Shown: positions 31,412-49,082 of the stretch, in pieces
Position numbering within the stretch: the stretch's first letter is position 1
How the letters are laid out: each line of letters opens with the position of its first letter
Source: Sedimentibacter sp. MB35-C1
Lineage (GTDB): Bacteria; Bacillota; Clostridia; Tissierellales; Sedimentibacteraceae
DNA: 64,000 nucleotides
Assembly (NCBI RefSeq): GCF_030913635.1
Contig: NZ_CP133188.1
Coordinates: 1,798,001 to 1,862,000 of the forward strand
Direction of reading: 5' to 3'
The notes under the pieces: generated by a model
Told to the model about the DNA's origin: nothing
The model's database searches: none
The model's input: the letters and a program-made list of their open reading frames with translations, nothing else
Made by a program: the position numbers and the translations under genes

Positions 31412-32050
31412 ATGGTTATAGTTGTTATAAGAGCAATAATTTTATACACAGTTTTGATGATATCCATGAGAATAATGGGAAAGGGAGAATTGGGAGAGCT
31501 TCAGCCTCACGATCTTGTAGTTTCTTTGATGCTTGCGGAGCTTGCCGTAATGCCCATGGAGGACTTAGGTGAGCCTCTGCTGCACGGATTTATTGCGACA
31601 GCAACAATAATGTTTCTTCAGTGTTTTATTTCCTATATAACTTTGAAAAATAATACAGCAAGGAAATTTATATGCGGAACACCAACAATAATAATTGACC
31701 ACGGTAAATTTAATATAAAAGAAATGAATAAGCTTAGAATAAACATAAATGATGTATTGGGGCAGATGCGTCTAAAGGGATATAATAATGTTGAAGACGT
31801 GGACTATATTATAATGGAAACAAATGGGGAAATGAGCATTATTGCACCAGATGATCATCCAGGCAAGAAATGTATCAGAATTCCCATTGCGACTATACTG
31901 GACGGTGAAGTAATGCATGATAATTTTAAAAAATACAAGATTTCGTACAAAAGATTTGAAGAAGAGTTAAAAAAGAAAAAATTAAATCCAAATCAAGTAT
32001 TGTATGGGTTTGTGGATGAAAATGACAGATTTGTTTTTCTTGAGAGGTAA
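31412..32050 (+). CDS. DUF421 (YetF-type) membrane protein
   Basis: A 212-residue protein. Three N-terminal helices (about 3-22, 35-55, 58-82) with MRIMGKGELGELQPHDLVVSL and LAELAVMPMED typical of DUF421, then a soluble C-terminal domain (GTPTIIIDHGKFN, LRININDVLGQMRLKG). The ATG at 31412 follows GGAGA; a longer frame from 31169 would read through the REP-like repeats and is unlikely. The family occurs in sporulating Firmicutes (YetF, YrbG). It is followed by a DUF4363 gene, its usual partner. Confidence 0.88.
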   Translation: MVIVVIRAIILYTVLMISMRIMGKGELGELQPHDLVVSLMLAELAVMPMEDLGEPLLHGFIATATIMFLQCFISYITLKNNTARKFICGTPTIIIDHGKFNIKEMNKLRININDVLGQMRLKGYNNVEDVDYIIMETNGEMSIIAPDDHPGKKCIRIPIATILDGEVMHDNFKKYKISYKRFEEELKKKKLNPNQVLYGFVDENDRFVFLER

Positions 32051-32053
32051 GTT

Positions 32054-32437
32054 ATGAGAATGGTTGTAATATCCTTGACGATCCTACTTGTGCTAATGGC
32101 TATATGGACTTGGGTGCATTTCACCTCAATAGATCCAATGACTGAATATTATCGAGAAGAATTAACCGGGTTAGGTGATTTAATAGATGCAGGGGATTGG
32201 GACAGTGTTGAGTCTAATATGGTCAATTATTATGAAGAATGGCAGGATACCAGAGAGCTGTGGATATATTTTGTCAACCAAGACGATATAGATAATATAG
32301 ATGCATCTATGGAAAAACTGAAGTCATTTGTAGGAAATCGAGATAAAGTAATGGCTCAAGCAGAGCTTGAGCACTTAAAGGTATTGTTTGTTGTTATAAA
32401 AGAGAATGAATGTGTAACATTGGATAATATTTTTTAG
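32054..32437 (+). CDS. DUF4363 family protein
   Basis: A 127-residue protein with one N-terminal helix (residues 4-22) and a helical outside domain with repeated acidic blocks (LGDLIDAGDWDSVESN, YEEWQDTRELW). It lies 3 bases after the DUF421 gene. Function unknown. Its stop codon directly abuts the stop of the convergent gene, with no room for a terminator. Confidence 0.8.
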   Translation: MRMVVISLTILLVLMAIWTWVHFTSIDPMTEYYREELTGLGDLIDAGDWDSVESNMVNYYEEWQDTRELWIYFVNQDDIDNIDASMEKLKSFVGNRDKVMAQAELEHLKVLFVVIKENECVTLDNIF

Positions 32438-33331
32438 TTATTTAATAGTATTAGAGAGCGTACCAATTTTTTCGATTGTACAATCAACGGTGTCACCTGC
32501 ACTAAGGTATTTTGGAGGCTTAAAACCAGCTCCAACTCCTGCCGGAGTTCCTGTTAATATTATGTCGCCAGGATATAGAGTTATTCCTGCTGACAGGTCA
32601 CTTATTATTTCAGGTATGTCAAATATAAGTTGATTTGTATTTGCGTTTTGTCTTAACTCACCGTTAACATAGCTTTTTATTTCCAGATTTGGCGGGAAAG
32701 GTATGCAGGATTTAGGCACTATGTACGGACCCATAGGGCAGTAAGTGTCGAGAGATTTTCCTTTGTGCCACTGCATGTGATCTTGCTGCATATCACGTGC
32801 TGATATGTCGTTAGCTATAGTGTAACCGAAAATCACGCTCTCGGCTTCTTCTCTGGAGACATCTTTGCATTCTTTGCCAATTATAACTGCAAGTTCAACT
32901 TCATAATCCAGCTCTTTAACAACTTCTGAATGAGCAATAACCTCATCATTGTGTCCAACTGCAGGATACGCAATCTTGCTGAAATATATAGGTTTCTTCG
33001 GAATATCAGAATTAACATTTCTAAGTCCTCCGACTTCGTTAACATGGTCTACATAGTTCTTACCGAGACAGAGTACATTTCTCCTTGGGTAAGGTATGGG
33101 TGCCATTATATTAACATCTTCAATTTTAAGATGGCTGTCTGACGAAGCTATTGCATCGTTTAGCTTAGCCGTATCCAGCTGGTCAAAAGTATCAATCAGG
33201 TTTAACATATTCGAGGGTACCGGAAAATTTAATTTTTTAAAAACAGCTTCAGCTGGAATGATTTCATTTCTGTTTTCACTTAAAAATCCAATATGCTCTT
33301 TGTTTTCATGAAAATAAGTTAGTATGTACAT
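32438..33331 (-). CDS. Fumarylacetoacetate hydrolase family protein
   Basis: A 297-residue enzyme of the FAH superfamily. CLGKNYVDH, ELDYEVELAVIIGKECKDV (metal-binding acids), GYTIANDISARD, KGKSLDTYCPMGPYIV and ILTGTPAGVGAGFKPP are the family signatures. Members hydrolyse or decarboxylate acylpyruvates and related diketo acids with Mg2+. Start at 33331 with GGAGG five bases before; the ATG at 33343 overlaps that site. The exact substrate is not determined. Confidence 0.9.
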   Translation of the reverse strand: MYILTYFHENKEHIGFLSENRNEIIPAEAVFKKLNFPVPSNMLNLIDTFDQLDTAKLNDAIASSDSHLKIEDVNIMAPIPYPRRNVLCLGKNYVDHVNEVGGLRNVNSDIPKKPIYFSKIAYPAVGHNDEVIAHSEVVKELDYEVELAVIIGKECKDVSREEAESVIFGYTIANDISARDMQQDHMQWHKGKSLDTYCPMGPYIVPKSCIPFPPNLEIKSYVNGELRQNANTNQLIFDIPEIISDLSAGITLYPGDIILTGTPAGVGAGFKPPKYLSAGDTVDCTIEKIGTLSNTIK

Positions 33332-33430
33332 ATGAACCTCCATAATTTTTATAATATAATATAATACTTTATCATAAATTTTTCAAGAGTTATTTACATA
33401 TCTGCTAAATTCCTTGGATTTATGAATTTA

Positions 33431-33459
33431 TTGCAGTATAAACTTTCATATGGTATAAT
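33431..33459 (+). promoter_or_regulatory. Promoter of the HD/nucleotidyltransferase/PRTase operon
   Basis: TTGCAG (33431-33436), 17-base spacer, TATAAT (33454-33459) with an extended TGG before it. It lies 35 bases before the start of the 1621-residue gene. Confidence 0.75.
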
Positions 33460-33494
33460 GTTTACATTGAACTTTTAATTTAATGAGGTATATT

Positions 33495-36400
33495 ATGAGT
33501 AGATTTATGTTGAATGAGTTACATAAGGAAATACTGCAAAGTCTAACAAAAAAAGATTTTTTGAAAAAAATTAATGTTTCAGAAGAAAAAATACAGTCTT
33601 CTATCATCAATAAAAAATTTGTTAATAACCTTCTTATACTTATTAACAAAAACCAATTATTATGCAGAGATGTACTGGATTTGTCTTTCGACATATTAAA
33701 TAACGTTTGCAATGAGTCTCCTAAAGACTGGCTGTCATACATATTCCAATATACACTGCATAAATCATTTCCTGACGCAACAACGATCAAACTTTTTACA
33801 AAATACGAAAATGGCGCTCTCATATACCTGGAAATGCTGAAAACAATACTTCGACATGGGCATAACAGCGGCATGTTCGATAAATTTACTGATTTTAAAT
33901 TTTTAAGTGAAGATGATATAAAAGATTTGCCAAACCAGGAGGAATATATCACCTTCCTTGATAAGTTTGAAAAAAATTATATATATGAACTTATGATGCT
34001 GGATCATGAGGTGAACGGATTCAACACGTTAAACCACGTTGCTGCTGTTCACTATGTTGCAATGCATATTGCCAGCCAGCTTAAGAAGGTGGGTTCGCAT
34101 GTTAACCTGGGTCTTGTTTCAGGTGCTGCTGCAGGACATGATATAGGCAAGTACGGTTGTAAAGGATTGGAAAAAAGAAGGGTTGCGTATCTGCATTATT
34201 ATTATACAGATCAATGGTTTACTAAGTACAATATGCCTAATATAGGCCTTATTGCAACAAACCATTCAACATGGGATCTTGAGCTGGAAAATCTGCCGTT
34301 AGAATCTCTTATTTTGATTTATGCCGATTTCAGAGTCAAAAATATGTCTACAAAGAATGGACCTGAAATGCACATTTATGATTTGAGTGAGTCATTCCAA
34401 ATCATACTTGACAAGCTTGATAATGTGGATGAAAAAAAGGAAAAAAGATATCAAAGAGTTTATTCCAAGCTCAAAGATTTTGAAAATTATATAGTGCATG
34501 AAGGAATTAATATAGATTTCAAAACTGACGAACCTATGCCGTCTAAATTTGTTGACTATGCTCTTCTGGACGGGTATGAGGTTGTTGAAAACTTTAAGTA
34601 CATGGCTATAGAGCACAATACTTCATTGATGAGCAAGCTAAACAATGAAGTTGTGTTCTCAAGTATGATAGAATCAGCAAGAAGCGAACAGAACTGGCAG
34701 AACTTAAGGGCATATCTGAATATATTGGAAGAGTACTACATATATCTTTCTCAAAAAGAGAAGCTGTTTACGCTAAGCTTCCTGTACGAAATGCTGGTGC
34801 ACAGGGAAGGTGATATCAGGCGTCAGGTAGCAGGCCTTATGGGAAAAATAATTGTAACATACGATCCCGAGCATTCAAAAGAGCTGCCTGAGGATGTTAA
34901 AATTGAGTTTATTGAAGAGAATACAGGGTTATCAATATGGGATAAATACTTAGGTATATTTCTTGATCCTGGCTACAAGGTAACAGATAACCATAAGGAA
35001 TGGATTGGATATTCATTGAGAGTTTTTGTCGACAGCGTTATTAACTCAAGCAGGAACAAGGATAAGAAAAGCTATCTTGAGATATTTATTAAAAAAATAA
35101 AAGAAATTAATGCAGACGAGGTTGCCAGATTCAATGTTTTAAATTCCTTATTGAGCATTCCGATTGACTTGTATGAGAAAGAGCAGTTGGAATTTGTGAT
35201 TTCGTATTCACTTGATTCTGTTAATGATACTGCACAAAATATAAGTCTGATGGCGGTTCAGTTTTTTAACATGCTTGTAAACTATAAAAGCAGTGCTAAG
35301 GCATCATTAGATAAGCTGCGTGAATTTGCATTGCAAGTAAATGAGAATGACGGTTTGTGTATAAATTATTTAAAGGGCAGAATAGCAAAAAAACTAGATG
35401 CGCCTGATTATGTTTCGGATAAATACAATGAACTTATGAGCAGCAGTATATACAAAACCTCCGAACTGTTTCTGAATAACTTAAAAGCTGCTACACCTTG
35501 GAATGTAAAAACAATCAGCATTGATTTTATTATGGAAAACATAAAAAGTAAAAACGAAGTTACATTGCTTCAGACTGCAACGCACCTTGCCAATCTGGTA
35601 AAGGTAAGCGCTAAGGAATCCGTAAGAAATAAGGCTGGAAATTCTTTGGTTGAAATAGGACCGTTTTTATCAATAGAACAGAGAAATGAAATAGCGGTGG
35701 AGCTATTTAAAGGCCTTGAAATAGATGAACTTCAATATGCAAAGTACATTCCGGAATATCTGGGCAGGTTTATGATGCTTCTGCCTCCCAAAGAACTTGA
35801 TGAATGCATTTTGGATTTGAATATAATTTACAAAGGAACTAATCCCCGTGTCAGTGTGCTGGTAATTAATACATTTGGCATAATATTACAGTATTACCCA
35901 GAGTACATAGATAGGTTTAAAGAAGATGAAGAATCGTATAATAAGAGACTTAAAAAAATGCTGGGTATTATTTTAAGCGGCCTTGCAAATTATAACACTC
36001 AAATAAAGCAGGAAACATTTTTTGTTATAGGGCAGAATGTGTTTGGGTCTAAGATCCTCAGCTTGAAAGAAAAGCACAAATTATTTTTGATTTTATACAA
36101 AAAACTTTTGACATTGATAAATGAAAAAGAGCTGGAAGATTTATTTTTCTTTAATAACTCATCATCATTTAATCATATATACAGGTTTATAAGTGATTAT
36201 GAATTTTATTATAAAAATTTTGATATACATGTGAATGGGAACATTGCATTTTTCCCCGGTACCTTTGATCCTTTTTCATTGAGCCACAAAGGAATCGTAA
36301 CAGCAATACGAAATCTTGGATATGAGGTATATTTATCGGTTGATGAATTCTCATGGTCTAAGAAAGTGCAGCCTAGGATGATAAGAAGACAGATAATTAA

Positions 36401-38360
36401 CATGTCCATCGCCGACGAATTGGGAGTATTTTTGTTTCCAGACGATGTGCCTGTGAATCTGTCAAGTTCCAATGACTTAAAAGCCCTTAAAGGACTGTTC
36501 CCGAAAAAGGAAATATATATTGTTGTGGGTAGTGATGTCCTCCTAAATGCTACAGCATACAAGTCAAGACCTACAAAGCATTCAATACACAGTTTTAATC
36601 ATATTGTGTTTAAACGCACTCAGGATGAAGTGCCTTCATCTGCCAAGAAGACTGAAGATGCTAAAAGCAGAATCAAAGGAACTATAGTTGATCTTCAGCT
36701 TCCAATGTATCTGGAAGATATAAGCTCAACTCAGATAAGAGATAACATAGATAATAACAGAGATATATCTAACTTAATAGATTCTCTGGCGCAGAGCTTT
36801 ATTTATGACAGAAATCTCTATACAAGAGAGCCTTTAAATAAGGGTATCTTAAAATCTAAGCCGTTTACAATCGAGATAATAGATGATCTGAGCCAAAAAA
36901 TTGTGGATGAAATAGGCCACTACATTTTCATGCATACGAGTTTATATGAAAATATCGGAGAACAGCTCATTTCCAAAAAAATTAAGCTTCTCGTTATAAG
37001 AGACAGCAAGAATTCAAATAAGCTTCTTGGATTCTCAGCGTTTCATAAAATTGCTTCATCAGAGGTATACGGTGAGTTTCAAAGTCAGTATATTGCAAAT
37101 TATGTAAGAGAAAACACGGCAGGAAGAATAATTATAATAGATGGTATTTTTATGAATCCTAGCAAGATTTATAACAATATGGAACAGATAATACTGACTG
37201 AAACTCTTGCATACTGCTTGAAAAATGATTTTACTTATGCTCTCTATTACAACAATATGTCCAATACGAACTCGGACACCATAATAGATACATTAAAGCA
37301 TCAGGGGTTCAAAAAAATTCATGATGAAGGTATGAATAAATCCGTATATGCTGTTGATATGAAATTTCCAATATGCCTGACACTGAACATGAAGAGCTTT
37401 TTAAAAGAATCTCTCAGCACAAATGAGAAGGTTCACGATGCTATCGAAGCTGCCAGAAAGAGGCTTCAAAAGTCACTGACTGAGCTTTACCCGGGATCCT
37501 TGGTTCTGTCCATTGACAATGACATGATTAACCAGACGCTTATAAACAAAATATGCAGCATAAATAATGTCAACAATGAAATGCAGATTCCCAGAGCGAT
37601 AGGGGAAAATATGTGTGTTCCCTTCGGAAATATTTTAAAAGGGATGGTTGTTCCAAATACGGTTACAAAGTCTCTTCATACAGAGAAGGTATATTCAACG
37701 GATGCAATGACATTCAAGATAACTGAGTATCCTTTTTATTCACCTATAGAAATTCAGGTAAAAACCATAAAATCCTTTGAAAAACCAGTTATTTTGGTCG
37801 ATGACCTACTTCACAAAGGATACAGAATAAAAGAATTGGATCCAATACTCAAAAGGTACAATGTAGATGTTAAAAAAATAATAGTCGGCATTATGTCGGG
37901 AAGAGGAAAGGACCTGATGGAAATTCAGGGAAGAGATTATGATTGTGCATACTTTATACCGAATTTGAGGATATGGTTTAACGAAAACCTTATGTATCCA
38001 TTTTTAGGAGGAGACGGTATGTGGATGAATAATGAAAATATGCAGAATTTGATTCCATCCATAAATCTGATACTTCCGTATTATTCGCCAATGTATATAA
38101 GCAAGGCAACAAACGAATCGATTTATAATCTGTCAATGGTCTGCCTTGAAAATGCAAGATCGATTCTTTTGGCACTTGAAGCAGAGTATCAAGAGATGTA
38201 TGAGAAAAAGCTTACCGTTAAAAGACTTGGAGAAGTTTTGATTTCGCCCAGACTTCCATACTTAGGTGAGAACATATATTACGACCTGAACAAGGAGGCT
38301 TCCGGCTTTATGGGCGGCAGCATCGAAAAACTTATAAAGCTTGAAAGGATTATTAAATAA
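33495..38360 (+). CDS. Multidomain fusion: HD domain, helical repeats, NadD-like nucleotidyltransferase, GNAT-like, phosphoribosyltransferase-like
   Basis: A 1621-residue cytosolic protein. Residues about 175-290: HD phosphohydrolase with His181, His215-Asp216 (GHDIGKYG) and NHST. About 360-900: helical, HEAT-like repeats without motif. About 915-1090: nucleotidyltransferase of the NadD/cytidylyltransferase superfamily with GTFDPFSLSHKG (922-933) and SSTQIR (1077-1082). About 1120-1290: GNAT-like fold ending TLKHQGFKKI. About 1350-1530: phosphoribosyltransferase-like with VILVDDLLHKGYR (Asp1436-Asp1437), whose PRPP loop lacks the usual Thr-Gly. Start chosen at 33495 after GAGGT. It leads a three-gene operon. 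I infer a nucleotide- or nicotinamide-related pathway; the product is not known. Confidence 0.8.
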   Translation: MSRFMLNELHKEILQSLTKKDFLKKINVSEEKIQSSIINKKFVNNLLILINKNQLLCRDVLDLSFDILNNVCNESPKDWLSYIFQYTLHKSFPDATTIKLFTKYENGALIYLEMLKTILRHGHNSGMFDKFTDFKFLSEDDIKDLPNQEEYITFLDKFEKNYIYELMMLDHEVNGFNTLNHVAAVHYVAMHIASQLKKVGSHVNLGLVSGAAAGHDIGKYGCKGLEKRRVAYLHYYYTDQWFTKYNMPNIGLIATNHSTWDLELENLPLESLILIYADFRVKNMSTKNGPEMHIYDLSESFQIILDKLDNVDEKKEKRYQRVYSKLKDFENYIVHEGINIDFKTDEPMPSKFVDYALLDGYEVVENFKYMAIEHNTSLMSKLNNEVVFSSMIESARSEQNWQNLRAYLNILEEYYIYLSQKEKLFTLSFLYEMLVHREGDIRRQVAGLMGKIIVTYDPEHSKELPEDVKIEFIEENTGLSIWDKYLGIFLDPGYKVTDNHKEWIGYSLRVFVDSVINSSRNKDKKSYLEIFIKKIKEINADEVARFNVLNSLLSIPIDLYEKEQLEFVISYSLDSVNDTAQNISLMAVQFFNMLVNYKSSAKASLDKLREFALQVNENDGLCINYLKGRIAKKLDAPDYVSDKYNELMSSSIYKTSELFLNNLKAATPWNVKTISIDFIMENIKSKNEVTLLQTATHLANLVKVSAKESVRNKAGNSLVEIGPFLSIEQRNEIAVELFKGLEIDELQYAKYIPEYLGRFMMLLPPKELDECILDLNIIYKGTNPRVSVLVINTFGIILQYYPEYIDRFKEDEESYNKRLKKMLGIILSGLANYNTQIKQETFFVIGQNVFGSKILSLKEKHKLFLILYKKLLTLINEKELEDLFFFNNSSSFNHIYRFISDYEFYYKNFDIHVNGNIAFFPGTFDPFSLSHKGIVTAIRNLGYEVYLSVDEFSWSKKVQPRMIRRQIINMSIADELGVFLFPDDVPVNLSSSNDLKALKGLFPKKEIYIVVGSDVLLNATAYKSRPTKHSIHSFNHIVFKRTQDEVPSSAKKTEDAKSRIKGTIVDLQLPMYLEDISSTQIRDNIDNNRDISNLIDSLAQSFIYDRNLYTREPLNKGILKSKPFTIEIIDDLSQKIVDEIGHYIFMHTSLYENIGEQLISKKIKLLVIRDSKNSNKLLGFSAFHKIASSEVYGEFQSQYIANYVRENTAGRIIIIDGIFMNPSKIYNNMEQIILTETLAYCLKNDFTYALYYNNMSNTNSDTIIDTLKHQGFKKIHDEGMNKSVYAVDMKFPICLTLNMKSFLKESLSTNEKVHDAIEAARKRLQKSLTELYPGSLVLSIDNDMINQTLINKICSINNVNNEMQIPRAIGENMCVPFGNILKGMVVPNTVTKSLHTEKVYSTDAMTFKITEYPFYSPIEIQVKTIKSFEKPVILVDDLLHKGYRIKELDPILKRYNVDVKKIIVGIMSGRGKDLMEIQGRDYDCAYFIPNLRIWFNENLMYPFLGGDGMWMNNENMQNLIPSINLILPYYSPMYISKATNESIYNLSMVCLENARSILLALEAEYQEMYEKKLTVKRLGEVLISPRLPYLGENIYYDLNKEASGFMGGSIEKLIKLERIIK

Positions 38361-39568
38361 TGTTTTATTACAAATACAAGAACACGTACCTTTTTTCCCT
38401 TGAAGATAATTACAATTTTGAAAAACTGGAAAGTTTGCCGGATAATCTTAATGAGCTTTATTTTCTTTGCAACATTGATAAGAATAAATCTAAAAAATCT
38501 TATGCCGTGTCGCATACATCAGATATTTTCGCCATGGAAGAAAGCCTTGAAATGTTGAAGTTAACAGATAGATGCTATGATATAGACGATAAAATAACGA
38601 GGCTAATTGAGCAAAGAAAGATAAAAGCCGTAAATACCTCCTATAATGATTTTGAGGACTGCCTTTCAATGGAGTGTAACATAAAGAAGAAAGTAAATAT
38701 ATTGGCGCTTGGAGATGTGGGAAGCACGCTTCTTACGGGACTTAGACTGCTTGGCGGGAATTCCATAGGAAGCATAGGTATATTTGACAGAAGTCCGGAT
38801 AAGATTAAAAGATGGGAATATGAAATGAATCAAACTTCCTATCCCTTTGATTTTTATTCATTTCCTGAAGTTCAGGGAATTTCAAAAGAGGAATTGTTTG
38901 ACTGTGATATGTTTGTGTTCTGTGCTTCAAAGGGAGTTCCTCCAGTAGGGTCTGAAGGTATTGACGTAAGAATGGTTCAATTTGAGGAAAATAAAAAGCT
39001 TATAAAAGAATACGCGGTAATGGCTGCGAAAAAAAACTTTACAGGAATATTCGCTGTTGTGTCTGATCCTGTTGATCCTTTGTGCGCTTCTGTTCTCAAA
39101 GAAAGCGAAGGGAAACTTGCTCCTGAACAGATAAAGGGATACGGCCTTGGCGTCATGAATGCAAGAGCTGCCTATTATGCTAAAAAGGATGATAAATATT
39201 CATCTTATTTATCACATGGAAGAGCATTTGGACCTCATGGAAATGGTTTGGTTATTGCAAACAGCATAGATAGTTATGACAATAATCTCTCTGAGGAGCT
39301 TACGAAGCTTGCTGTTCAAGCAAATCTTCAGGTTCGTGAAACCGGGTTTAAGCCGTATATAGCACCTGCTCTGTCATCTGGTGCAATATCCATTGTGCTG
39401 ACACTGGAGGGTAAATGGCATTACAGTTCCAACTACTTGGGGGGAGTATTTATGGGAGCTAAAAACAGAAATATTCCATCAGGGCTGGAAATAGAAAAAA
39501 TTATAATGCCCAATAAATTGTTTAAGCGTCTTGAAAAAACATATAATGAATTGAAAAAATTTATTTGA
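38360..39568 (+). CDS. Lactate/malate dehydrogenase-superfamily protein with altered active site
   Basis: A 402-residue protein. An N-terminal extension (1-110) precedes a Rossmann domain (NILALGDVGSTLLTGLRLLGG, Gly118-Ser122) and an LDH/MDH C-terminal domain. The catalytic His is kept (His293 in FGPHGNG), as is Arg269 (MNAR), but the Asp of the usual LDSAR is Met266, and the mobile substrate loop (normally RKPGMxR) reads SKGVPPVGSEGIDVR. It overlaps the upstream stop by one base (TAATG). It may be a dehydrogenase on an unusual substrate or a binding protein. Confidence 0.75.
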   Translation: MFYYKYKNTYLFSLEDNYNFEKLESLPDNLNELYFLCNIDKNKSKKSYAVSHTSDIFAMEESLEMLKLTDRCYDIDDKITRLIEQRKIKAVNTSYNDFEDCLSMECNIKKKVNILALGDVGSTLLTGLRLLGGNSIGSIGIFDRSPDKIKRWEYEMNQTSYPFDFYSFPEVQGISKEELFDCDMFVFCASKGVPPVGSEGIDVRMVQFEENKKLIKEYAVMAAKKNFTGIFAVVSDPVDPLCASVLKESEGKLAPEQIKGYGLGVMNARAAYYAKKDDKYSSYLSHGRAFGPHGNGLVIANSIDSYDNNLSEELTKLAVQANLQVRETGFKPYIAPALSSGAISIVLTLEGKWHYSSNYLGGVFMGAKNRNIPSGLEIEKIIMPNKLFKRLEKTYNELKKFI

Positions 39569-39597
39569 ACTGATGTTTGCATAACGGGGGTGAAGCA

Positions 39598-40656
39598 ATG
39601 AGTAAATTAACTGTAATAATGCCAGGAGAAGTTTCGGAAAGACTTCGTAAAATGTACGAATATTCCACAAAAGGGTACGAGATTGAAATAATAAGAGAAT
39701 CATGCGAAATTAATAATCTGAAAAATAAGAGAATATTATTTGCGGTAGATCTCGGAGATTCAGGAATAAATATTGAGCTGTTCAAAATCTTAAATAAAAT
39801 TAAGCTGTCCGGGGATGATTTTATGCAAGATTCATTTGGAAGTGTTCTCATAAACAGCGGTAATGAGCTATATTCACGAGATGTTGCGCGCAAAATAATA
39901 CTGTACTGTAATCTGGCTGGATGTATGTTCCCGGGAAGGCCGCTTTCGGAAGCTACAGGCTCTCTAAAAAACTTCAGTACCCAGAAAAAAAGAATACCAG
40001 GTATGAATCTTGAAGAAATATGCTTCAGTGACAGCAGAAATGTTGTAGAAAGATTAATTGATTTCAAGGTAACAAAAATATCAGATCCTAAAATACTTAC
40101 GCTTCATGCAAGCAATTACAGAACCTCAAATACGCTGTCTCTATGGAATAAAGTTAAAAAAAATCTAACAGGTTACAACATTAAAGAGATACATATAGAA
40201 AACGGGTCTGTGAGAGACTGCAAGGGTTGCCCGTACAAGGCCTGCAAGCACTATTCACAGAGCACTAACTGCTTTTATGGAGGAGTAATGGTTGAAGAAG
40301 TGTATCCTGCTATACTTGATTGCGATATTCTCATAATGTTGTGTCCTAATTACAATGATTCCATAAGCGCCAATTTGTCAGCTGTAATTAACAGGCTCAC
40401 TTCTTTGTTCAGGAAAACTAAATTTTATGACAAATATGTATATTCAGTTATAGTTTCAGGTTTCAGCGGAAGCGATATAATAGCACAGCAGCTCATAAGT
40501 TCGCTTAATATAAACAAGACTTTTATGCTGCCGCCGAAATTTGCTCTGATGGAGACAGCAAATGATTTCGGAGCTATTGATAAAATAGAAAATATAGACC
40601 ATAAAGCTAAGAGGTTTGCTGAAAACATAAAGAGCTGTGTTAGTAAAAAAAATTAA
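39598..40656 (+). CDS. Flavodoxin-fold NAD(P)H-dependent oxidoreductase with Cys cluster
   Basis: A 352-residue protein. The C-terminal half (about 160-352) is an NADPH-dependent FMN reductase-type flavodoxin fold (ILTLHASNYRTSNTLSL, ILIMLCPNYNDSISANLSAVINRLTSLF). A Cys cluster, CX2CX4CX8C (Cys208, 211, 216, 225), resembles those of iron-sulfur flavoproteins. The N-terminal 155 residues match no family I recognise. Start ATG at 39598 after GGGGGTG, 29 bases after the dehydrogenase-like gene. Likely the redox partner of the operon. Confidence 0.75.
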   Translation: MSKLTVIMPGEVSERLRKMYEYSTKGYEIEIIRESCEINNLKNKRILFAVDLGDSGINIELFKILNKIKLSGDDFMQDSFGSVLINSGNELYSRDVARKIILYCNLAGCMFPGRPLSEATGSLKNFSTQKKRIPGMNLEEICFSDSRNVVERLIDFKVTKISDPKILTLHASNYRTSNTLSLWNKVKKNLTGYNIKEIHIENGSVRDCKGCPYKACKHYSQSTNCFYGGVMVEEVYPAILDCDILIMLCPNYNDSISANLSAVINRLTSLFRKTKFYDKYVYSVIVSGFSGSDIIAQQLISSLNINKTFMLPPKFALMETANDFGAIDKIENIDHKAKRFAENIKSCVSKKN

Positions 40657-40680
40657 CCTGGCTGCTGTCAGGTTAATTTA
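40651..40680. terminator. Bidirectional terminator after the three-gene operon
   Basis: AATTAACCTG (40651-40660) pairs with CAGGTTAATT (40669-40678). On the reverse strand eight T's follow; on the forward strand only TTTAGCTT. Confidence 0.6.
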
Positions 40681-40688
40681 GCTTATAA

Positions 40689-40722
40689 AAAGCCCGCCTG
40701 TTTCGTTACTGTACAAGGCGGT
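40689..40722 (-). terminator. Terminator of the second 2H phosphoesterase gene
   Basis: Reverse-strand CCGCCTTGT pairs with ACAGGCGG (one bulged T), followed by GCTTTTTATAAG, seven bases after the stop at 40729. Confidence 0.7.
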
Positions 40723-40728
40723 CAATAA

Positions 40729-41262
40729 TCATTTGTTCAGTTCAAACACGCCTACGGCTTTGCTCATATCAGAAGAAGTTATCTTCAAGCTGGTGATTTC
40801 AGCTGTAAATGGAGAAAAACTTTCCCAAAGGATTGAAAGTATCTTCTGTTCCTGACCTGGATCAATCGAAGCTATTGACATATGAGGTGTCCAGCTGTTT
40901 TGCTTCAGAGAGAACAAGCATCCTTTATCAGTACAACATTCATCGTATCTTTTGTGTATGTTTGAGTGAAGCTCAAGTAGATTCCAGCTTGAGCAGGGGG
41001 CCAAAAAGCATAAGCGAGCATCTGTGAAAAAACCAAAATGGTTTAAGTGGATTTTAATGCTTTTCTGTTGCTTTGCAATTTTATCAATCCACTGTAGCAG
41101 ATCCTCATCATTTAATTCTGTATATATGCCGAATGTTATGTGCGGCTCGTATTCATCAGTAGCTATACCATGCATTTTTAGCTTGTCTTTTATTCGGTGC
41201 ACTTCTTGGTTTGCCTGATTATCAAATGTGCCCATGACACATAGAGTTCGTAGCTGATCCAT
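40729..41262 (-). CDS. 2H phosphoesterase / 2'-5' RNA ligase family protein
   Basis: A 177-residue protein with both HxT/S motifs of the 2H superfamily: PHITFGIY (about residues 40-47) and TPHMSIAS (about residues 124-131). Members hydrolyse 2',3'-cyclic or 2'-5' phosphodiesters. Monocistronic, with its own terminator. A second family member is at the left edge of the window. Confidence 0.85.
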   Translation of the reverse strand: MDQLRTLCVMGTFDNQANQEVHRIKDKLKMHGIATDEYEPHITFGIYTELNDEDLLQWIDKIAKQQKSIKIHLNHFGFFTDARLCFLAPCSSWNLLELHSNIHKRYDECCTDKGCLFSLKQNSWTPHMSIASIDPGQEQKILSILWESFSPFTAEITSLKITSSDMSKAVGVFELNK

Positions 41263-41438
41263 AATACCCCCTCATTATTTTAATTACAGAGTTTTTAGTA
41301 AATTATACTATCAGAAATAAATCTTGTCAAATTACGTCCAAATAAAAGCAGCTCCAAGTATCAAACTATATGTGCTATTTTTAACAAAAAAAGCTGCACT
41401 TTTATTGGTTATTACCAACAAAAATACAACTTTTAGCT

Positions 41439-41515
41439 TGGTCGGGATGACAAGATTCGAACTTGCGGCCCCAAACACCCCATGCTTGTGCGCTACCAAA
41501 CTGCGCTACATCCCG
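41439..41515 (-). tRNA. tRNA-Pro (anticodon GGG), CCA encoded
   Basis: The reverse strand folds as a complete tRNA: acceptor CGGGATG/CATCCCG, D-arm GCGC..GCGC, anticodon stem CAAGC/GTTTG with loop ATGGGGT (anticodon GGG), T-arm with GTTCGAATC, discriminator A and encoded CCA. Closely like Escherichia coli proL in its anticodon arm. It reads CCC (and CCU) codons and can pair with the CCC specifier of the proline T-boxes at 48.6-49.1 kb. Confidence 0.95.
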
Positions 41516-41526
41516 GTTACACTACT

Positions 41527-41555
41527 ATTATAAACAAAAAACTGTATTTTGTAAA
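41527..41555 (-). promoter_or_regulatory. tRNA-Pro promoter
   Basis: Reverse-strand TTTACA (41555-41550), 17-base spacer, TATAAT (41532-41527), 12 bases before the mature tRNA 5' end. Confidence 0.75.
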
Positions 41556-41668
41556 GAAAGATTTAATAAAATAATACAAAATTATTTCTTGCAATTTAAA
41601 GTGCATTCTGATAGAGTTTAAATATCTATCAATATAATTGATAAAATAATATTAAGGATGTAAATATT

Positions 41669-42034
41669 ATGAATGATAATGAATTATTCGACTGTGGATG
41701 CGGCGAAGATGAAGGCTGCGGATGCGGATGCGGCTGTGAACACGAACATGAAGAAGAAATAATGACTATTACCCTCGAAGACGGCACAGAAATGGAATGT
41801 GCCATTATTGCCATATTCCCTGTTGGAGAAAAAGATTACATAGCTCTTTTACCGCTTGAAAATCAGGAAGACGGTGAAGTATTCTTATATGGCTTTGAAG
41901 AACATGAAGACGGCTCTTTTGAACTTCTTAGTATTGAATCAGACGAAGAATACGAGAAAGTTACGACAGCGTTTGATGAAATACTGGACGAAGCTGAAAT
42001 TGACGAGTTGCTAGATGATGAGGATGAAGAATAA
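41669..42034 (+). CDS. DUF1292 family protein with Cys/His-rich N-terminus
   Basis: A 121-residue acidic protein. Residues 1-30 hold CGCGEDEGCGCGCGCEHEHE, a possible metal-binding stretch; 31-100 is the DUF1292 domain (TITLEDGTEMECAIIAIFPVGEKDYIALLPL); the C-terminus is almost entirely Asp/Glu. DUF1292 (YrzB-like) proteins are small cytosolic proteins of unknown role in Firmicutes. Confidence 0.88.
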   Translation: MNDNELFDCGCGEDEGCGCGCGCEHEHEEEIMTITLEDGTEMECAIIAIFPVGEKDYIALLPLENQEDGEVFLYGFEEHEDGSFELLSIESDEEYEKVTTAFDEILDEAEIDELLDDEDEE

Positions 42035-44202: not shown

Positions 44203-45589
44203 TATTACCGAATACGTAAAGACTGTTTGTGAACAAGTAAGATGGAAAAAGGCTCATGATTTGATTTCGGAAGAAATAAAAGATCATATAGTTGATCAAA
44301 AAAATGCATTTATAAATAGCGGTTTAGATGATAAAACTGCAACGGAAAAAGCAATTATTGAAATGGGTGATCCGGTACTGATTGGAACAGAATTTGACCG
44401 ATCATACAGACCAAAAGTTGAGTGGAGTATTGTTATTTTAACATGTATTATGGTATTTATGGGATTTTTAGTTAGATACTTTGTAATTTACAATTCTGCC
44501 GAAAACATAAATATATCTATATCTAAGGATATTTTAAGTATTATAATTGGATTTGCATTTATGACTACAGCATATTTTTTAGATTTTACTATAATCGGAA
44601 AACATCCTAAGAAAATTTTTTTTGGACTGATAGTTTTAGTTATAGTAACTTTTACGAATAATAATCCTTACTTTTCACCAACAACTTTTTCGTTTATACT
44701 TCTATTTTTCCCAACGATTTTTGCAGGAATTATACATAAAATGAGAAACAAAAGCTATCTGGGAATAATACAAATGGGCATATTTTTTTTCATACCTGCT
44801 GTTATTTGTTTAAATGCAAGGACTATTTCAAGCATTATAATTTATTCAATTTCATGCCTTATGTTGTTGACAGCAGCGATTTTAAATGGCTGGGTTAATG
44901 TAAAAAAATCAAACGCACTTTCTCTTGTCTATGGAGTTGTTGCATTGGTATCTACAACTTCTATGCTTGTAATAATTTCAACGAGATCTTACATGTTCCA
45001 TAGGCTTCAAGGGGCTTTTAATCCTTCCCTTGAACCACAAACTTCAGGATGGCTGACAATTTTTGTGCGCAATAGAATTTCTGGTGCAAAGCTTTTTGGA
45101 CAAGGTTCTTTAGGTGAATATGCAGGAGTTACTTTGCCTAGTAAACATAGTGATCTTTTACTAACATATTTAATACATAAAGTAGGCTGGGTTTCATTTA
45201 TTGTTGTAACGATGATTGTTATAATATTTATTATTCGTTTATTTAAGCTTTGCAAGAAACAAAAAAGTGTTTTGGCAAAATTGGTATCAACTTCTATATT
45301 AATTACATTTACAATGCAAGTTTTTGTATATGTTATTTATAATTTAGGATTTCAACTGTTATCCCCACTTACTTTGCCGTTTTTTTCATACGGGTCAGCA
45401 TCAATTGTAATAAATATGATATTAATAGGAATATTGCTTTCAGTATTTAATACAGGGGATTTATACTATGATGATAAACCTAAACATGCACTAAACAAAA
45501 ATAAGTTATTCGAATATTCAGAAGGCAAGATTACTATTGATTTGAATACTAAATTAAAAAAGAATTTGGAGGTAAATAATGAACAATAA
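44189..45589 (+). CDS. FtsW/RodA/SpoVE (SEDS) family protein with N-terminal HAAS-like prefix
   Basis: A 466-residue membrane protein. Residues 1-70 are a soluble helical prefix (VRWKKAHDLISEEIKDHI, TEKAIIEMGDP) as in PadR-linked permease-prefix/HAAS proteins, followed by about ten helices. LPSKHSDLLLTYLIHKVGW matches the conserved Pro-x2-His-x-Asp loop of SEDS peptidoglycan glycosyltransferases, and PFFSYGSASIVINM the terminal signature. TTG start at 44189 with AGGGGG upstream. Unlike core FtsW/RodA it is under PadR control, which suggests a conditional peptidoglycan polymerase or flippase-like role. Confidence 0.85.
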   Translation: MQQSNITEYVKTVCEQVRWKKAHDLISEEIKDHIVDQKNAFINSGLDDKTATEKAIIEMGDPVLIGTEFDRSYRPKVEWSIVILTCIMVFMGFLVRYFVIYNSAENINISISKDILSIIIGFAFMTTAYFLDFTIIGKHPKKIFFGLIVLVIVTFTNNNPYFSPTTFSFILLFFPTIFAGIIHKMRNKSYLGIIQMGIFFFIPAVICLNARTISSIIIYSISCLMLLTAAILNGWVNVKKSNALSLVYGVVALVSTTSMLVIISTRSYMFHRLQGAFNPSLEPQTSGWLTIFVRNRISGAKLFGQGSLGEYAGVTLPSKHSDLLLTYLIHKVGWVSFIVVTMIVIIFIIRLFKLCKKQKSVLAKLVSTSILITFTMQVFVYVIYNLGFQLLSPLTLPFFSYGSASIVINMILIGILLSVFNTGDLYYDDKPKHALNKNKLFEYSEGKITIDLNTKLKKNLEVNNEQ

Positions 45590-46250
45590 TGAAATACATA
45601 ATGAAATTCTGCGAATAGTCCGTGATAAATTAAAGTGTTCTGCTCATAACCTGGACCATGTTATGAGGGTATACAACCTATGCCTGATGCTTGCCGAACA
45701 TGAAAAAAATGTAGATTTGGATGTTCTTGTTCCCTCGGCACTGCTTCATGATATTGCAAGAGTTGATGAGATAGAGGATAAAACGGGAAAAACGGATCAT
45801 GCTGTCTTAGGGAGCAAATTGGCCGGCGATATATTGAAAAATATGGACTATGATAAAGAAAAAGTTGAGAAAATTAAACATTGCATATTAGCACACAGGT
45901 ATAGAACAGGAAATAAACCTATTACGATAGAAGCTAAAATACTATTTGACGCAGATAAGATTGACGCAATAGGAGCTGTAGGCATTGCTCGAGCTTTTAT
46001 GTTATCTGGCCAAAGCGGGCAAGGGTTAGCATTAAGCGATTCAATTGACGATTATCTTTCATCAAACACTGCAGAAAACGGGAGGATTAAGAATTGGTCA
46101 AAACACTCGGCATTAATTGAATATGAATTTAAGCTAAAAAAGATTCCTGATAAATTATATACTGATAAGGCAAAAGAAATAAGCAAAGAAAGAATGAAAT
46201 TTATGGATGAGTTTTTTAAAAAACTAAAATTAGAATTAGAAGGCAAGTAA
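45579..46250 (+). CDS. HD domain phosphohydrolase
   Basis: A 223-residue protein of the HD superfamily (YedJ-like): HNLDHVMRVYNL, LLHDIARVDE (His-Asp), HCILAHRYR and DADKIDAIGAVGIAR. The start overlaps the SEDS stop by 11 bases with GGAGG before it, so it is co-transcribed with padR-SEDS. Substrate probably a nucleotide or other phosphate ester; unknown. Confidence 0.88.
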   Translation: MNNNEIHNEILRIVRDKLKCSAHNLDHVMRVYNLCLMLAEHEKNVDLDVLVPSALLHDIARVDEIEDKTGKTDHAVLGSKLAGDILKNMDYDKEKVEKIKHCILAHRYRTGNKPITIEAKILFDADKIDAIGAVGIARAFMLSGQSGQGLALSDSIDDYLSSNTAENGRIKNWSKHSALIEYEFKLKKIPDKLYTDKAKEISKERMKFMDEFFKKLKLELEGK

Positions 46251-48626: not shown

Positions 48627-48836
48627 CATATAAAAAATCCGCCCTCACTAAGAGGCGGATTATCCACGGTACCACTCTAATTGCCGCAATGCGGCATCTC
48701 ATTTCAAATAACGGTTTATGCCGTTCAGGTTGCCATACCTGAAAGCTCCGAGACGGGTTCAATATGCAGAGGGACAAAAACATCTCACCACCAGTTTTTT
48801 CTCTTTGGACCATGCAAATTTACTGCTTCTCATCAC
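48627..48836 (-). promoter_or_regulatory. Proline T-box riboswitch, proximal copy
   Basis: Reverse strand: Stem I with AGTAA and GAA-CCC (specifier CCC at 48757-48755), the T-box bulge AGAGTGGTACCG, and a terminator (CCGCC / GGCGG then TTTTTT, near 48660-48630). The bulge reads UGGU, which expects discriminator A, as in the tRNA-Pro of this window. Uncharged tRNA-Pro should favour the antiterminator and switch on the ProC-like gene. Confidence 0.88.
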
Positions 48837-48857
48837 AGCTCATATTCTGTTTTAAGG

Positions 48858-49082
48858 TATAAAAAATAAAAACCACCTCTACAAAGAGGCGGATATCCGC
48901 GGTACCACTCTAATTACTGTATACAGTATCTCATTTAAATAACGGTTTATGCCGTTCGGGTTGCCACACCCGAAAGCTCCAAGACGGGTTCAATATGCAG
49001 AGGGACAAAAACATTTCACCACCAGTTTTCTCTCTTTGGACCATGCAAATTTACTGCTTCTCATCACAGCTGTTTATTTTAT
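48858..49082 (-). promoter_or_regulatory. Proline T-box riboswitch, distal copy
   Basis: A second, very similar T-box about 232 bases upstream of the first, with the same GAA-CCC specifier (48988-48986), T-box AGAGTGGTACCGCGG and its own terminator (CCGCCTC..GAGGTGG then TTTTTATTTTTT). Transcribed first. Confidence 0.88.

Follow-up and report, generated by a model that had tools for sequence, protein, structure and literature searches.

Among the closest described counterparts of the system treated here is the NadD-YqeK fusion, whose HD part acts as a proofreading and diadenosine tetraphosphate (Ap4A) hydrolase domain (PMC9426524), and the ligand order H-HD-H-H-D is described as the mark of a dinuclear, two-metal site such as that of YqeK (PMC8177086). 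The window analysed in this work, 64,000 nucleotides of the Sedimentibacter sp. MB35-C1 contig NZ_CP133188.1, comes from a one-contig genome of 3.6 Mb and encodes a giant protein carrying an HD domain and a NadD-like nucleotidyltransferase; among named relatives, a Sedimentibacter assembly comes closest, with a giant that is 97% identical. Behind the giant gene lie genes for a divergent dehydrogenase of the lactate/malate dehydrogenase (LDH/MDH) type and for a protein resembling flavin mononucleotide (FMN) reductases (Table 1). We propose, with a probability of roughly 0.45, that this operon serves one dedicated nucleotide-linked pathway organized on the giant as a scaffold. The kinds of domain are known, and their combination and the three-gene unit appear to be undescribed in the literature searched: searches of open-licence PMC papers found no description of the architecture or the gene set, and no curated family in Pfam or NCBIfam spans the whole giant.

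Table 1. Operon features in window coordinates; residues of the giant are counted from position 33483, as in P0001.
Feature	Position	Strand	Size or evidence
Promoter TTGCAG (33431-33436), 17-base spacer, TATAAT (33454-33459), extended -10 TG	33431-33459	+	read directly
Ribosome-binding site GAGG of the giant gene	33485-33488	+	present in 8/10 aligned upstream regions
Gene of the giant multidomain protein	33495-38360	+	1621 aa from ATG 33495
HD domain, residues 150-345	33930-34517	+	NF045665 HD part 1e-6, TIGR00295 6.6e-5
HEAT/ARM-like alpha-solenoid, residues 345-905 (~560 residues)	34515-36197	+	all-helical model
NadD-like nucleotidyltransferase, residues 915-1117	36225-36833	+	TIGR00482 9.6e-13
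GNAT-fold domain, residues 1128-1300	36864-37382	+	Foldseek SpNatD 2.4e-5
Type-I-phosphoribosyltransferase-like domain, residues 1300-1540, motif VILVDDLLHKGYR	37380-38102	+	Pfam Pribosyltran, APRT 0.003
Gene of the divergent LDH/MDH-like dehydrogenase	38360-39568	+	402 aa
Gene of the FMN-reductase-like protein with four invariant Cys	39598-40656	+	352 aa from ATG 39598
11-pair hairpin at the operon end	40650-40679	.	terminator call in the scan on the - strand only

The three genes form a single operon, as an earlier reading of this DNA (the first-pass annotation) had held: one promoter precedes them, the last base of the giant's TAA stop is the first base of the dehydrogenase ATG (a TAATG overlap), and the flavoprotein gene follows after a gap of 29 bases, with GGGGGTG upstream of its start codon. 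TTGCA, the extended -10 TG and TATAAT are invariant in all ten aligned upstream regions, where the 17-base spacing and the ATG at 33495 recur as well; the mechanically called open reading frame begins 12 bases 5' of that ATG, and in a scan for consensus promoters the operon promoter scored under the cut-off. The terminator that was said to close the operon stands in part, in that the hairpin exists but is scored as a terminator on the minus strand only, the T-run on the plus strand lying mostly within the stem. Rfam at gathering scores placed no riboswitch near the operon, and positions 32000-42000 held no tandem repeats.

The three genes are also tied together across genomes. Among 61 relative genomes the giant is present in 49, in some as fragments at contig ends; any match to it was found in 54, five of which (G027, G029, G033, G042 and G047) matched by way of NadD only. 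The dehydrogenase occurs in 46 of the 49 giant-bearing relatives and in none of the 12 others, leaving out one weak generic match in G059 (3.5e-5), and strong flavoprotein matches were obtained in 46 of the 61 and in none of the 12 without the giant, leaving out weak matches in G025 and G033. In a phylum-wide sample of 348 genomes the giant and the dehydrogenase family are found in the identical six, four of them outside the class. The expectation that the genes would be neighbours elsewhere was borne out: of 45 regional loci, drawn from 43 genomes, 40 have the dehydrogenase next after the giant and on its strand, and of the five exceptions three are contig ends (L029, L030, L111) and two are real (L100 in G384 and L112 in G025). 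The genes flanking the operon differ between groups while the three operon genes stay together. In the order to which G384 belongs, the giant was found in 8 of 21 genomes; the redox pair directly follows it in G411, G416 and G418 and lies on another contig in G384, G414 and G415, its two members still adjacent. At L031 each of the three operon genes is split into two frames, by sequencing error or decay.

Genome G025, assembled as one contig, is a natural null that indicates which parts of the giant belong to the pathway, such that a few constructs would suffice to test the assignment. Its giant occupies the same locus as in the relatives, behind the same upstream genes; neither partner is present, and the 19 kb examined at the locus hold no remnant of them. 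The frame is open over ~1600 codons, the loss having come about by substitutions and short gaps rather than by frameshift. None of the six HD ligands survives, each being substituted or absent, the GTFDP of the nucleotidyltransferase reads NIFNP, ISSTxIR is lost, and the loop that would bind phosphoribosyl pyrophosphate (PRPP) is changed as well. Counted over columns at least 97% conserved elsewhere, the catalytic parts keep 19 of 53 (HD) and 30 of 53 (nucleotidyltransferase), and the other parts 55 of 62 (solenoid), 7 of 7 (GNAT) and 39 of 44 (phosphoribosyltransferase). The HD domain of G025 is 30 points less close to the window protein than its GNAT domain is; in the other 38 aligned relatives the difference, HD minus GNAT, runs from -0.7 to +37 points. 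Since the pair and the HD and nucleotidyltransferase residues were lost together, these two domains and the redox pair probably act in one pathway, from which the role of the remaining parts of the giant is probably separable.

Within the giant, the HD, NadD-like and GNAT-like assignments of the first-pass annotation hold, whereas that of a phosphoribosyltransferase-like part is weakly supported. The HD domain carries the superfamily motif for two metals, H...HD...H...H...D, in the form H185, H219, D220, H238, H261 and D282, and all six ligands are kept in 45 of 46 aligned rows (45 genomes; these rows underlie the catalytic-residue counts). Its relatives match the HD part of NF045665 in 30 of 33 members and TIGR00295 in 20 of 33. 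Assignment of the domain to YqeK found no support: no YqeK model is among its five NCBIfam matches, and by profile YqeK is no nearer to it than unrelated proteins are, with ranks of 4, 27 and 154 among 261 for three YqeK controls. The top profile matches to this HD domain, around the HD motif, are a 223-aa protein encoded elsewhere in the window (45579-46250, plus strand) and its relative in L021. Between the HD domain and the nucleotidyltransferase sits the solenoid, whose predicted model (N-terminal half, mean predicted local distance difference test score, pLDDT, 74) matches CAND1, SF3b and importins in Foldseek at low template modelling (TM) scores, which indicate the fold class only.

The nucleotidyltransferase is related to NadD at some distance. 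Against TIGR00482 the window protein scores 48.4-48.6 bits, below the cut-off of 112.45, and the relatives with a whole domain, among those listed, score 39-59 bits; the model is matched at ≤1e-3 by 32 of 33 members, other NadD models by all 33, and hhalign aligned the domain with the genome's own NadD at P=98.3. F928, D929, P930, H935, K960, R968, S1081, S1082, I1085 and R1086 are all present in 44 of 46 rows, and position 932 is S or T, together with H935, in 40 of 40, so that the catalytic motifs (H/T)xxH and ISSTxIR are there. The strict HxGH is not kept, the giant reading SxSH (HLGH becoming SLSH), and PPHK has become SWSK. In canonical NadD the Y-x-x-D-T stretch is the nicotinate-side segment; it too is not kept, CYSVDTL of the genome's own NadD aligning to SSNDLK of the giant. 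These three altered segments speak, as far as sequence can, for an acceptor other than nicotinate mononucleotide. A housekeeping NadD that exceeds the cut-off is encoded separately from the giant in 60 of the 61 relatives, the exception, G007, being 70% complete, which rules out the giant as the housekeeping enzyme. The low score, the separate true NadD and the changed segment together speak against the specifically nicotinamide- or NAD-directed role that had been suggested for the operon; a link to NAD is possible. In the window genome the housekeeping NadD forms a single 372-aa protein with an HD domain of the YqeK type (L156:498-1616; YqeK by eye); G025 and G041 encode the two separately.

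That the next part of the giant has the GNAT fold was confirmed by structure search, in which 45 chains were matched at E≤0.001, the matches listed being acetyltransferases, with TM-scores normalized by target length of 0.46-0.69 over the best 50. GNATs bind acetyl-coenzyme A (acetyl-CoA) through a Q/RxxGxG/A motif; the corresponding region reads N-N-(L/M)-E-Q-I in most members and Q/RxxGxG/A was not found there. In a profile comparison with a control set nothing stood out for this part, the set holding no control purposely chosen for GNATs. Residues 1300-1540 resemble a type I phosphoribosyltransferase, a weakly supported assignment that leans on sequence because the model is poor there (pLDDT 24-72 by block, mostly <60). 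At E≤0.1, 16 of 33 members match Pfam Pribosyltran, 6.8e-4 being the best value; the window member scores 13.4 bits where the cut-off is 26.3. Four of seven phosphoribosyltransferase controls came at ranks 3-6 of 261, behind two unrelated proteins, the others ranking 11, 20 and 237; the last of these, L152, is probably in the wrong frame. A hydrophobic strand is followed by two acidic residues, D1440, present in all 40 rows, and D1441, present in 39. Type I enzymes usually bind PRPP through a TGGT-like loop. The giant has VILVDDLLHKGYR in its place, reading HKGYR with NKG, HNG and other variants among the members, and no TGGT-like loop was found; because of this replacement the PRPP-dependent attachment ascribed to the giant in the first-pass annotation is doubtful.

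Of the two partners, the dehydrogenase matches LDH both in NCBIfam (1.6e-6) and by profile against the PDB (9.1e-9), although its Pfam Ldh_1_N score of 22.1 bits is below the cut-off of 27. H293, R269 and R204 are invariant by eye and, by LDH numbering, would include the catalytic His and the substrate Arg. An Asp after the second strand favours NAD; since it is missing in 6 of 32 members, the cofactor may be NAD or NADP. The flavoprotein matches PF03358 (FMN_red) at 2.5e-19 (69.8 bits, cut-off 24), as do all 31 members at E≤0.01, and its cysteines C208, C211, C216 and C225, numbered from ATG 39598, are invariant in 31 rows. Iron-sulphur (Fe-S) flavoproteins have a compact cluster motif, CX2CX2CX4-7C; the spacing here is C-x2-C-x4-C-x8-C and the compact motif is absent; we regard the protein as a probable Fe-S flavoprotein.

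A pathway that unites these activities might run as follows. The NadD-like domain would transfer a nucleotidyl group from a nucleoside triphosphate to a phosphorylated acceptor, releasing pyrophosphate and giving a dinucleotide-like or nucleotide-activated product, and the two-metal HD domain would hydrolyse this metabolite, or wrong or spent forms of it, at a phosphoester or pyrophosphate bond. Redox chemistry on the metabolite, or on a precursor of it, would fall to the probable Fe-S flavoprotein and to the dehydrogenase, which is of the NAD(P)-dependent 2-hydroxyacid type. The solenoid and the GNAT-like and phosphoribosyltransferase-like parts, the last two with their usual catalytic loops altered, would keep the enzymes in one assembly and are likely to bind a partner or regulatory ligands. 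In short, the giant may run chemistry of the NadD-YqeK kind on another acceptor, joined to the partners' redox steps. The shared nucleotide-linked pathway of the first-pass annotation is in this general form supported by the co-occurrence of the genes, the cohesion of the pair after separation from the giant and the joint loss in G025. A large protein that most of the relatives searched keep whole, that has two partners dedicated to it and that belongs to no curated family would represent uncharted nucleotide or cofactor chemistry. A bolder version, to which we give about one chance in four, is an undescribed nucleotide-linked cofactor or second-messenger pathway of anaerobic bacteria, in which the giant, as an assembly line of about 1600 residues, would join an activated group to a nucleotide and edit the product, the redox pair would finish or recharge it, and the GNAT-like and phosphoribosyltransferase-like end would have a second, non-catalytic role that outlives loss of the pathway.

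Several points weigh against a dedicated pathway of this kind. We infer every reaction and substrate, as well as the roles of the GNAT-like and phosphoribosyltransferase-like parts, and sequence does not reveal the substrates of the HD domain and nucleotidyltransferase. When sequence profiles were searched against the PDB, no significant match came up for the HD part (best E 0.25), the GNAT part (best E 0.33) or the phosphoribosyltransferase part (best HPRT, E 0.14), and none at 0.01 for the flavoprotein. In the dehydrogenase an invariant Met266 stands, by eye, where LDH has what is presumably the Asp that pairs with the catalytic His. In G413, which is 79% complete, the giant is present and no dehydrogenase was detected. 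The losses in G025 are one evolutionary event, for which we roughly estimate the chance of coincidence at a few per cent (1 or 2 of 45 genomes).

The first rival is that the operon synthesizes, edits or repairs NAD(P), the giant adenylating a damaged or unusual pyridine mononucleotide, the HD domain removing wrong dinucleotides and the partners reducing or oxidizing the pyridine. The NadD models matched by all 33 members and the NadD-YqeK fusion of the window genome itself would fit such a role, as would the YqeK-like order of HD ligands (PMC8177086) and, in a minimal mycoplasma, a YqeK domain that is joined to NadD and reported to proofread (PMC9426524); the score of 48 bits under the 112-bit cut-off, the true NadD in nearly every relative, the change of HLGH to SLSH, the loss of the Y-x-x-D-T segment and an HD profile no nearer to YqeK than to other proteins make it unlikely. 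A second rival is a regulatory machine. Its nucleotidyltransferase and HD domain would place nucleotidyl groups, reversibly, on a signal metabolite or a protein, and ligands resembling PRPP and CoA would be sensed by the phosphoribosyltransferase-like and GNAT-like parts. It would account for the pairing of opposed activities in a single chain that also has a large solenoid, for an altered PRPP loop and a missing RxxGxG-like motif, which suggest binding over catalysis, and for the conservation in G025 of precisely the solenoid, GNAT and phosphoribosyltransferase parts. We think it improbable, since nucleotidyltransferases of the kind found here, the NadD type, act on small molecules and since it leaves the two redox enzymes unexplained; protein-modifying nucleotidyltransferases with HD domains, moreover, use another fold.

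Two further explanations are very improbable. One, which is mostly refuted, places the operon in a Ter-type (tellurite) island for stress response or phage defence, with a nucleoside-like metabolite as its product. In G384 the giant adjoins a Ter-like cluster (by eye; L100, L144), all three TerD-bearing relatives (G031, G043, G056) have the giant, and Ter phosphoribosyltransferases are described as making a nucleoside signal (PMC7824862); but TerD is found in 3 of the 61 relatives against 49 for the giant, which led us to reject the Ter system as a general link, the G384 giant and the cluster gene nearest to it run towards each other, and the short stretches around the giants of G411, G413, G414, G415, G416 and G418 contain no Ter genes by eye. 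Nor does PADLOC at 0.01 match the giant or the flavoprotein; the dehydrogenase had one weak match there, and across its 32 aligned members two PADLOC models were each matched by a single member. The G384 cluster comprises, by eye, genes for TelA, three TerD, a CitE-like lyase, HAD and phosphoribosyltransferase-like proteins and a P-type ATPase. The other is that the genes are adjacent through shared ancestry with no joint function: a single order supplies most of the genomes compared, so that their gene arrangement may have been inherited. We give this hardly any credence in view of flanks that vary around a constant trio, the exact match of presence in the 348-genome sample and a pair that stayed together after separation from the giant in three genomes.

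Other neighbours and associations were set aside. Serine dehydratase subunit genes lie upstream of the giant, by eye, at L104, L105, L115, L121, L123, L126 and L129, directly adjoining it in five of these seven loci, and a small RelA/SpoT-like alarmone synthetase, also by eye, lies downstream in the opposite direction at 14 of 45 loci (e.g., L105, L106, L118), two of them in one genome; these, like oxidase and prenyltransferase-like neighbours (by eye), are not constant across genomes. A link to sporulation was rejected, as the presence of Spo0A does not track the giant: Spo0A occurs without it (e.g., G027, G032, G033, G039, G047, G049, G055) and the giant without Spo0A (e.g., G028, G030, G040, G045, G054, G058, G060). 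A scan of viral contigs, sensitive to close relatives only, gave no confirmed relative. The window also contains two tandem T-box leaders on the minus strand (48648-49076; 108.5 and 109.2 bits).

With the Ter system the operon has in common a phosphoribosyltransferase-like part and, by eye, neighbourhood in one genome; its partner set is different and 58 of the 61 relatives have no TerD. Like the iron-sulphur flavoproteins and other FMN_red proteins, the third protein has an FMN_red domain over the cut-off with a four-cysteine cluster inside it, but the cysteine spacing differs and an extra N-terminal domain of ~160 aa is present. The second protein resembles L-lactate and malate dehydrogenases in its nucleotide-binding half with a GDVGST-type loop, its conserved Arg and its GPHG-type His (all by eye), and differs in an extra N-terminal stretch of ~100 aa and in the changes of SNPVD to SDPVD and DSAR to MNAR. 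The nucleotidyltransferase has the fold of NadD (TIGR00482), the GTFDP start, the conserved H935 and ISSTxIR; unlike NadD, it lies far under the cut-off, with HxGH, PPHK and the Y-x-x-D-T segment changed. The NadD-YqeK fusion (PMC9426524) likewise unites a NadD-type nucleotidyltransferase and a six-ligand HD domain on one chain. Because the HD profile of the giant is not nearer to YqeK than to other proteins, the parallel would be functional at most, and a true NadD-YqeK fusion is encoded separately in the same genome; the giant is built differently, with the HD domain first, a solenoid of 560 residues between the two enzymes, extra GNAT-like and phosphoribosyltransferase-like domains, and two redox partners.

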